Program-made: the position numbers and the translations under genes
NCBI RefSeq assembly: GCF_000220175.1
Contig: NZ_AFPU01000001.1
Coordinates: 1,027,512-1,091,511 of the forward strand
Direction: 5' to 3'
Origin: Nitrosarchaeum koreense MY1
Lineage (GTDB): Archaea; Thermoproteota; Nitrososphaeria; Nitrososphaerales; Nitrosopumilaceae
DNA: 64,000 nucleotides
In this document: in pieces, positions 29,729 through 35,011 of the stretch
Layout of the letters: each line of letters opens with the position of its first letter
How positions within the stretch are numbered: position 1 is the stretch's first letter
The notes under the pieces: model-generated
Database searches by the model: none
Seen by the model: the letters and a program-made list of their open reading frames with translations, nothing else
What the model was told of the DNA's origin: nothing

Positions 29729-30835
29729 ATGCGTCTATTAGAGTTTCAAGCAAAAGAGTTGTTCAGAAACTATGGAATTAATCTCCTTCCAAGCAAAGCA
29801 TCTACAACTATAGAGGAAGGCAGGAAGCACGCAAAAGAATTAGGATATCCGTTTGTAATTAAAATTCAAGTTCCCGTAGGAGGTAGAGGAAAAGCTGGAG
29901 GCATTCAAAAATGTCAAAATGATGACGAATTTGAGTTAAAATATCCACAAGTTTTAGGCTTGACGATTAAAGGAGAAAAGGCAAGAGCAATTTTACTTGA
30001 AAAGATGGCAGATATCAAAAAAGAGTTGTACCTGTCATTATTTTTGAATCGATCAAAAAGATGCTATACAATTATTGCATCACCTGAAGGAGGAGTTGAA
30101 ATTGAATCAGTTAAAAATCAGATTATTAAAGAAGTTGGCCTAGGTGAAGTTTCAGATCAAGTAGCAAGAGAAGTTGCAAAAGAGATGAAACTAGAAGGTA
30201 AAGCTGCAGATGACTTTGTAGACATATTACAAAAGTTAGCAAAACTTACAGTTGAAAAAGAAGCCGAGCTTGCAGAGATAAATCCGCTAGCAATTATGCA
30301 AGACGGTTCATTGATGGCACTTGATGGAAAATTTGTAACAGATGACAACAGCAACTTTAGACATGATGAATTACAAAAGTATCAAGAAAAAACAGAGATT
30401 GAAGAGAGAGCAGAAAAAAGTGGATTTTCACTTGTAGAATTAGATGGAGATATTGCAGTTGTTGGAAACGGGGCAGGACTAGTAATGTCTACACTGGATA
30501 TGTTATCTGATAACGGAGGCAAGCCAGCATGTTTCTTGGATGTGGGAGGTGGTGCAACAACTGATTCAGTTTATGAAGCGCTAACTTTGATTAGCAAAAT
30601 GCATAGAGTCAAAGGAATTTTAGTTAATCTTTATGGTGGAATTGTAAAAACTACAGTAGTTGCAGAAGCATTTCTAAAAGCATATGATGATAAATTGATC
30701 AACTTACCAGTGTTTGCAAGACTAAAAGGTACAGAATCAGACAAAGCAAAAGAAATGTTGAAAAATTCTAGAACAAAAATTTTTGATTCAGTAGAAGAGG
30801 CAATTAATGCAGCCGTCATGGGGATTAAAAGATGA
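29729..30835 (+). CDS. sucC: Succinyl-CoA ligase, beta subunit
   Basis: A 368-residue ATP-grasp subunit. It opens with the typical LLEFQAKELFRNYGI. VPVGGRGKAGGI (about 49-60) is the nucleotide-binding part, and FLDVGGGATTDSVYEAL (about 269-285) with ILVNLYGGI (about 297-305) is the phosphate-transfer region. With SucD it interconverts succinyl-CoA and succinate with NTP formation. It overlaps sucD by 4 bases. Confidence 0.95.
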   Translation: MRLLEFQAKELFRNYGINLLPSKASTTIEEGRKHAKELGYPFVIKIQVPVGGRGKAGGIQKCQNDDEFELKYPQVLGLTIKGEKARAILLEKMADIKKELYLSLFLNRSKRCYTIIASPEGGVEIESVKNQIIKEVGLGEVSDQVAREVAKEMKLEGKAADDFVDILQKLAKLTVEKEAELAEINPLAIMQDGSLMALDGKFVTDDNSNFRHDELQKYQEKTEIEERAEKSGFSLVELDGDIAVVGNGAGLVMSTLDMLSDNGGKPACFLDVGGGATTDSVYEALTLISKMHRVKGILVNLYGGIVKTTVVAEAFLKAYDDKLINLPVFARLKGTESDKAKEMLKNSRTKIFDSVEEAINAAVMGIKR

Positions 30836-31749
30836 CAGATATTTTCAAGATACTAAAAGGAACTCCTGAAGATTCAGATTACAAGAAAAAAGGAGTAATT
30901 GTTCAAGGCATCACTGGAGCATATGGTTCACTTCATGCAAAAAACATGATAACTTATGGAACTAACATTGTTGCAGGAGTAACTCCAGGAAAAGGAGGTC
31001 AGAAATTTGAAGACAAGGTTCCAATTTACAATACAGTTAAAGAAGCAGTTGATGCAAGTGGTGCAAAAATTTCAATTATTTTCGTTCCAGCAAAATTCTT
31101 TTTGGGAGCTGCAAAAGAGGCACTTGAAGCCGGAATTAAACTACTAGTTGCAATTCCAGAACATGTTCCAGTTAGAGATACAATGGAAGTATTAGATTTA
31201 GCAAACAAAAAAGGTGCGGTGATTATCGGACCCAATACTCCAGGAATAATGATTCCCGAATTAATAAAAATTGGAATCATGCCAGCAACTCCATTTAAGG
31301 CAGGAAAGATTGCCGTGTTATCAAAAAGCGGAACATTACTTTATGAAATTTCAGATGCACTTACAAGTGCAGGATTTGGACAGTCAATAACAATAGGAAT
31401 TGGAGGAGACCCAATTAACGGAACTAGAATGATCGATGCATTTGACATGGTAAAAGACATTCCAGATTTAGAAGGATTAGTAGTAGTTGGAGAAATAGGA
31501 GGAGATTCTGAAGAAATTTTGGCTCAACGAATTATAGATATCGGATTTAAAAAACCAACTGTAGCATATATTGCAGGAAGAGCAGCTCCTAAAGAAAAGA
31601 GAATGGGGCATGCAGGAGCCATAGTGATGGGAACGTATGGTTCTGCAGAATCAAAGGTATCAATGTTTAACAAGGCAAACATTCCAGTGGCAAAAAGACC
31701 GTCTCAGGTGCCAGTACTATTAGCAGGAAAAATGCAACAATCCGATTAG
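30832..31749 (+). CDS. sucD: Succinyl-CoA ligase, alpha subunit
   Basis: A 305-residue CoA-binding subunit. Signatures are VQGITGAYGSLHAKNM (about 24-39), the CoA site GVTPGKGGQ, VIIGPNTPGI (about 130-139) and the phosphorylated His in MGHAGAIVMG (about 258-267). It is coupled to sucC by an ATGA overlap. In this organism succinyl-CoA is also an intermediate of the 3-hydroxypropionate/4-hydroxybutyrate cycle, so the pair links carbon fixation to the partial citric acid cycle (family knowledge, not seen here). Confidence 0.95.
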   Translation: MTDIFKILKGTPEDSDYKKKGVIVQGITGAYGSLHAKNMITYGTNIVAGVTPGKGGQKFEDKVPIYNTVKEAVDASGAKISIIFVPAKFFLGAAKEALEAGIKLLVAIPEHVPVRDTMEVLDLANKKGAVIIGPNTPGIMIPELIKIGIMPATPFKAGKIAVLSKSGTLLYEISDALTSAGFGQSITIGIGGDPINGTRMIDAFDMVKDIPDLEGLVVVGEIGGDSEEILAQRIIDIGFKKPTVAYIAGRAAPKEKRMGHAGAIVMGTYGSAESKVSMFNKANIPVAKRPSQVPVLLAGKMQQSD

Positions 31750-32199: not shown

Positions 32200-32291
32200 G
32201 TTTGACTCTTGGAATTTTACTAGAAAAGGTAAAGGTTATCATAATATACAAAACCTAAAGGCAAAAAAGACGCTTGTCTTGTAATTTCATT

Positions 32292-32381
32292 GGACCGGTT
32301 GTCTAGTGGTTAGGATGACGCACTCACACTGCGTATGGAGAAATCCCGCAAAGGTCGAGGGTTCAAATCCCTCCCGGTCCA
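32292..32381 (+). tRNA. tRNA-Val (CAC) with a 17-nt intron in the variable arm
   Basis: Acceptor stem GGACCGG/CCGGTCC, D arm GTCT-AGTGGTTA-GGAT, anticodon stem ACGCA/TGCGT with loop CTCACAC (anticodon CAC, valine), T arm GAGGG-TTCAAAT-CCCTC and discriminator A are all clear. The gene is 17 bases too long. The excess sits after position 44 and folds as a bulge-helix-bulge splice site. Removing it gives a normal 73-nt tRNA with variable loop AGGTC. No CCA is encoded. A TATA-like ataatata lies at 32241-32248. Confidence 0.95.
32336..32352 (+). other. tRNA intron at non-canonical position 44/45 (bulge-helix-bulge)
   Basis: TGCG and CGCA form the central 4-bp helix. Three-base bulges TAT and AAG lie on opposite strands, and a GGA/TCC stem with a GAAA tetraloop closes the intron. 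Cutting after the second base of each bulge excises exactly 17 bases (32336-32352). Introns outside position 37/38 are known in crenarchaea and thaumarchaea, which have splicing endonucleases of broad specificity. Confidence 0.88.
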
Positions 32382-34471: not shown

Positions 34472-35011
34472 ATGAGTAAAAATTTTTGGCATGATATAGA
34501 ATCAGGAGTAGACATTCCAGAGATTGTTAACGTAATAGTAGAGATTCCAAAGGGATCCATGAACAAATATGAATATGATAAAAAACACAACATGATAAAA
34601 CTAGACCGAGTATTATTTTCACCATTTCATTATCCAGGAGATTATGGTTTGATTCCTCAGACACTTTCAGAAGATGGGGATCCACTTGACGCTCTTGTAT
34701 TGGTAACAAATCCAACATATCCAGGAATTCTAATTGAGGCAAGACCGATTGGATTGTTACAAATGAAAGATGATGGAAATCCAGATGACAAAATTATCTG
34801 TGTTTCAACAAATGATCCAAGATATCTTCATACAGTAGACATTACAGATGTGGAAGACCATTTCCGCTCAGAGATTGGGCATTTTTTCCAGGTCTACAAA
34901 GATTTGGAAGGAAAAAAAGTTGAGATATTAGGTTGGAAAGGAGCTATAGAAGCAAAAGAGATCATCGTAGAATCAATCAAAAGATACAAAGAGACTTTGA
35001 AAAAATATTAA
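34472..35011 (+). CDS. ppa: Inorganic pyrophosphatase (family I)
   Basis: A 179-residue soluble pyrophosphatase that hydrolyses the pyrophosphate released by biosynthesis. The signature DGDPLDALVL (about 69-78), the N-terminal VEIPKGSMNKYEYD and the C-terminal GWKGAIEAKEII with catalytic Lys/Tyr residues are present. Length matches the family. Confidence 0.95.
   Translation: MSKNFWHDIESGVDIPEIVNVIVEIPKGSMNKYEYDKKHNMIKLDRVLFSPFHYPGDYGLIPQTLSEDGDPLDALVLVTNPTYPGILIEARPIGLLQMKDDGNPDDKIICVSTNDPRYLHTVDITDVEDHFRSEIGHFFQVYKDLEGKKVEILGWKGAIEAKEIIVESIKRYKETLKKY

Follow-up and report, generated by a model that had tools for sequence, protein, structure and literature searches.

The tRNA-Val(CAC) gene of the window (the whole 64,000-nt stretch of DNA analysed) carries a 17-nt insert between tRNA nucleotides 44 and 45. 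We consider it nearly certain (probability about 0.96) that this insert is a conserved non-canonical archaeal bulge-helix-bulge (BHB) tRNA intron that is cut out by the splicing endonuclease, with its exons joined by RtcB, and that arose near the base of the family before about three losses. The ordinary archaeal tRNA-splicing enzyme would very probably remove the 17 bases. The gene and its elements have the following window coordinates:

32292..32381, + strand: tRNA-Val(CAC) gene, precursor form, 90 nt (cmscan with RF00005, and ARAGORN)
32292..32335, + strand: 5′ exon, tRNA nucleotides 1-44 (44 nt), GGACCGGTTGTCTAGTGGTTAGGATGACGCACTCACACTGCGTA (from pairing and comparison with intronless orthologues)
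32325..32327, + strand: anticodon CAC, nucleotides 34-36 (sequence and ARAGORN)
32330..32333, + strand: TGCG, nucleotides 39-42, the 3′ strand of the mature anticodon stem and, in the precursor, the 5′ strand of the BHB central helix; pairs with 32347-32350, and position 39 covaries with the intron
32334..32336, + strand: 5′ bulge TAT, predicted cut between TA and T (TA, cut, then T or A in 94/94 distinct arms; some of these arms came from a pattern scan in which the TA was fixed, and arms found by similarity show the same bulge)
32336..32352, + strand: intron TGGAGAAATCCCGCAAA, 17 nt, between nucleotides 44 and 45 (absent from intronless orthologues; register conserved)
32337..32346, + strand: intron hairpin GGA-GAAA-TCC, inner helix h′ (a 3-6 bp helix with compensatory changes in relatives)
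32347..32350, + strand: CGCA, intron strand of the central helix, identical in letters to nucleotides 28-31
32351..32353, + strand: 3′ bulge AAG, predicted cut between AA and G (A, then A, G, T or C, cut, then G in 94/94 distinct arms)
32353..32381, + strand: 3′ exon, nucleotides 45-73 (29 nt), GGTCGAGGGTTCAAATCCCTCCCGGTCCA (cmscan and pairing)

The gene matched the Rfam tRNA model RF00005 over its full length in cmscan (57.8 bits; gathering score, 29), and the model treated the excess bases as an insertion in the variable region. The 90-nt gene exceeds its 73-nt spliced product by 17 nt. The initial annotation had placed 17 extra bases after position 44, and both their sequence and their coordinates proved to be as claimed.

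The insert and the adjoining exon bases form a 4-bp central helix, TGCG/CGCA, with the 3-nt bulges TAT and AAG on opposite strands. Helices lie on both sides of this core in an hBHBh′ arrangement; the inner one has 3 bp and the outer one only 2 bp (C38-G46 and A37-U47). The description of the motif as textbook in the initial annotation holds for the core (central helix, bulges, GGA/TCC stem and GAAA loop) but not for the outer stem, which is just 2 bp long. A cut after the second nucleotide of each bulge would release exactly 17 nt. Since the 5′ exon and the intron both end in A, cutting one base further upstream would give the same product, and the cut site is uncertain by 1 nt. After excision, what remains is a 73-nt cloverleaf in which every stem is paired, with two wobble pairs in the D stem; its predicted variable loop, AGGTC, is 5 nt, as long as in intronless orthologues. 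The earlier claim that excision gives a perfect tRNA is borne out by this product.

A strict BHB test was defined as four central pairs plus at least three adjacent inner pairs in register. It was passed by 0.015% of 20,000 shuffles of the insert (0.00015) and by 0.065% of random 17-mers (0.00065). Because these rates are low and 48 of 49 distinct homologous intron-bearing arms retain the strict fold in loci found by similarity alone, with no motif selection, the fold of the insert cannot be attributed to chance.

The mature anticodon stem and the BHB are mutually exclusive because the central helix borrows the anticodon-stem strand TGCG. Folding energies make the competition between precursor and mature folds, already proposed in the initial annotation, plausible for this tRNA. 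When the D arm was held, the BHB fold (-29.4 kcal/mol) and the cloverleaf with intron hairpin (-30.8 kcal/mol) were nearly equal. The unconstrained optimum (-33.5 kcal/mol) included the BHB with a misfolded D arm; in the ensemble, values were 0.79-0.95 for the central helix and then only 0.04 for the D stem. These energies are no proof of the order of events, since the unconstrained model misfolds the D arm and the D-arm-held model slightly favours the cloverleaf.

Among the proteins encoded by the genome are two members of the tRNA-intron endonuclease family. The first (P0001, 178 aa) most resembles crenarchaeal chains and retains Tyr116, His124 and Lys155; in an ungapped alignment with chain 3p1z, its Lys35 falls at the place of the lysine of the Crenarchaea-specific loop. 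The second (196 aa) is without the histidine, as would be expected of a structural subunit. These assignments come from alignment, with Tyr115, His125 and Lys156 of the M. jannaschii enzyme and the loop lysine of Aeropyrum as the reference residues. A full-length RtcB ligase is also encoded (E 1.5e-179). The two-subunit splicing endonuclease is probably an (alpha-beta)2 enzyme. Thaumarchaeota have been described with alpha2-beta2 endonucleases, the type that accompanies non-canonical introns (PMC4090602), and loop-bearing endonucleases are likewise tied to such introns (PMC12397907).

We propose the following sequence of steps. The precursor would adopt the BHB by borrowing the 3′ strand of the anticodon stem (39-42), with the CGCA of the intron as a mimic of the 5′ strand (28-31). 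The two-subunit endonuclease would cleave both bulges and RtcB would join the exons. The released 39-43 strand could then re-pair with 27-31, yielding mature tRNA-Val(CAC) with the variable loop AGGTC.

A search of 61 genomes of the family gave a match in 60. Most family genomes showing the gene carry an insert at the same site, and most genera of the family retain it. Among the loci most similar to the DNA surrounding the gene, several are labelled Nitrosarchaeum (84-87% identical). This label predominates in the closest named relatives, so that the genome is more likely to belong with Nitrosarchaeum than with Nitrosopumilus, the nearby genus suggested in the initial annotation. The homologous introns at 44/45 are 16-25 nt long, and once 48 nt (49 distinct arms). 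The 48-nt intron (L045, G013:C253:4785-5107) keeps the BHB ends of the shorter introns and has an extended inner part. Addition of pattern-found loci from named genomes brought the strict BHB count to 93 of 94 distinct arms. One locus and its duplicate (L038 and L201) have an A-C mismatch in the central helix. Such conservation bears on an alternative in which a chance insertion has struck a decaying gene or a pseudogene. Its odd length alone favours that reading; however, all stems are intact, the gene is the only one named Val(CAC) by ARAGORN among the tRNA genes of the 1.6-Mb genome, and the insert is kept across most genera. We therefore regard a decaying gene as scarcely credible.

The paired positions of the intron change in a coordinated manner. 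Among relatives, the first pair of the central helix occurs as T-A, A-T, G-T, T-G and G-C. Nucleotide 31, nucleotide 39 and the intron partner of 39 mostly change together (A/T/A, T/A/T and C/G/T), and T/A/C is the sole form that breaks the pair. Pairs of the inner helix switch between G-C and A-U, and the intron interior otherwise varies freely. On this sequence evidence, the conserved register and compensatory changes are the signature of a base-paired splicing site. The case for a BHB intron is weakened by the 2-bp outer helix, the ambiguous fold energies and the mismatch in L038/L201.

ARAGORN, a generic tRNA finder, reads the gene as a single 93-nt tRNA whose variable region is long and weakly paired, as would suit an extended, class II-like variable arm that is retained and never removed. 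However, nucleotide 39 in the anticodon stem varies in concert with the 3′ strand of the insert, behaviour not expected of a variable arm, and the register and bulges of the insert are conserved. A self-contained stem in the variable region, the mark of class II, was not found; instead, the insert is paired to the anticodon stem and covaries with it. The same genome has separate genes for Val(TAC) and Val(GAC), whose variable loops are ordinary, as are those of intronless Val(CAC) genes. A retained arm is thus very unlikely, and we take the ARAGORN model to be a misreading of the intron.

Intronless Val(CAC) genes occur in part of genera g6 and g9 and in genus g19. Their variable loops are 5 nt long (TGGTC, GGGTC or AGGTC) and agree with the AGGTC predicted from splicing. 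Intronless genes are also present in families f9 and f10 of the same class, the only families in which intronless CAC outgroups were read. Matches in family f2 were considered as further Val(CAC) outgroups and rejected, as they are Val(GAC). The initial annotation had named comparison with relatives as a check. The outcome, the same site across most of the family with the BHB kept, upholds its claim of a BHB intron at 44/45, as do the conserved register, the compensatory changes and the intronless orthologues with the predicted spliced loop.

In an rpoB tree, the deepest split of the family has intron-bearing species on either side. Three changes are enough to explain the pattern inside the family, or four when the outgroups are counted as intronless; the tree outgroups are f2 and f3, where an intronless CAC gene was not itself shown, and several inner branches are weak. 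The distribution suggests a single gain of the intron close to the base of the family (Nitrosopumilaceae, by its named relatives), followed by about three losses. Its long retention across the family could also reflect an added role for a spliced intron, e.g., in modification timing or in keeping mobile elements from integrating into the gene; archaeal tRNA introns have been suggested to guard against such integration (PMC3293823). We consider such a role unlikely, in view of the loss of the intron in about three lineages and the freedom of its interior to vary apart from pairing.

The spliced intron may also constrain the mature tRNA. Pair 27-43 was A27-U43 in 49 of 49 distinct intron-bearing arms and in 0 of 4 distinct intronless arms from loci obtained without motif selection; uniformity of this pair over the 94 arms is partly circular, as the pattern scan fixed these letters. 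Every intronless arm has C-G or U-G instead, and the pair switches with each of the three inferred losses. The proposed constraint at 27-43 would arise from a need to keep nucleotide 43 free of pairing within the 5′ bulge; a G at 43 could pair with the C that usually ends the inner helix. That splicing rather than translation sets this pair is a tentative idea, somewhat short of an even chance, and with only three independent events the switch is suggestive and not established. If true, the sequence of a tRNA stem would be dictated by splicing rather than translation.

In kind, the Val(CAC) intron is no different from the non-canonical BHB introns of Crenarchaeota and Thaumarchaeota; like them it is short, lies away from 37/38 and has a 4-bp central helix with 3-nt bulges, and like their hosts the genome encodes two endonuclease subunits. 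It shares its BHB logic and enzymes with the canonical archaeal tRNA intron at 37/38, but it is located at 44/45 and its central helix recruits one anticodon-stem strand. The extra intron at 24/25 of Caldiarchaeum tRNA-Thr(GGU) was similarly gained within the tRNA body (PMC3293823); that intron is linked to a mobile element, whereas no such link was seen for Val(CAC). tRNAscan-SE 2.0 has a BHB model trained on Thaumarchaeota, and 107 non-canonical tRNA introns have been counted in the phylum (PMC8450103). We found no paper in the open literature that names the Val(CAC) 44/45 intron, which is very probably already within that catalogue. It is an ordinary member of a class already catalogued for Thaumarchaeota and leaves the understanding of tRNA splicing unchanged. 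The three-way 31/39/intron covariation and the 27-43 switch are modest extras over that class. The family offers a clean comparative series (intron present, covarying, and lost about three times) for studying intron gain, retention and loss, and for asking how a precursor switches from the splicing fold to the cloverleaf.

Several further tRNA genes in this genome look odd. A tRNA-Met-like gene (L098, C1:1357780-1358140; anticodon CAT by eye), left unnamed by ARAGORN, seems to have 15-17 additional nt in its D loop, probably another non-canonical intron. Three more loci (L099, C1:1479280-1479640; L100, C1:1275680-1276020; L097, C1:276780-277150), missed or misnamed by ARAGORN, are tRNA-like with odd insertions when read by eye. 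One of them may be an Arg(CCT) gene and another a Trp(CCA) gene with a large insert; the third has an insert after the D loop.

Upstream of tRNA-Val(CAC) are two genes for succinyl-CoA synthetase-like subunits (window 29729-31749), and further downstream is an inorganic pyrophosphatase-like gene (34472-35011), all named by eye from translations; the upstream neighbourhood is kept in relatives. Within the region directly upstream (window 32220-32291), the box A position reads CCTAAAGGCAAAAAAG, and CTAAAGACAAAAAA is conserved in many relatives. Most other tRNA genes of the genome, unlike Val(CAC), have TATA boxes resembling TTTAAT or TTAAAT, and the unusual box A is possibly a weak or specialised promoter.
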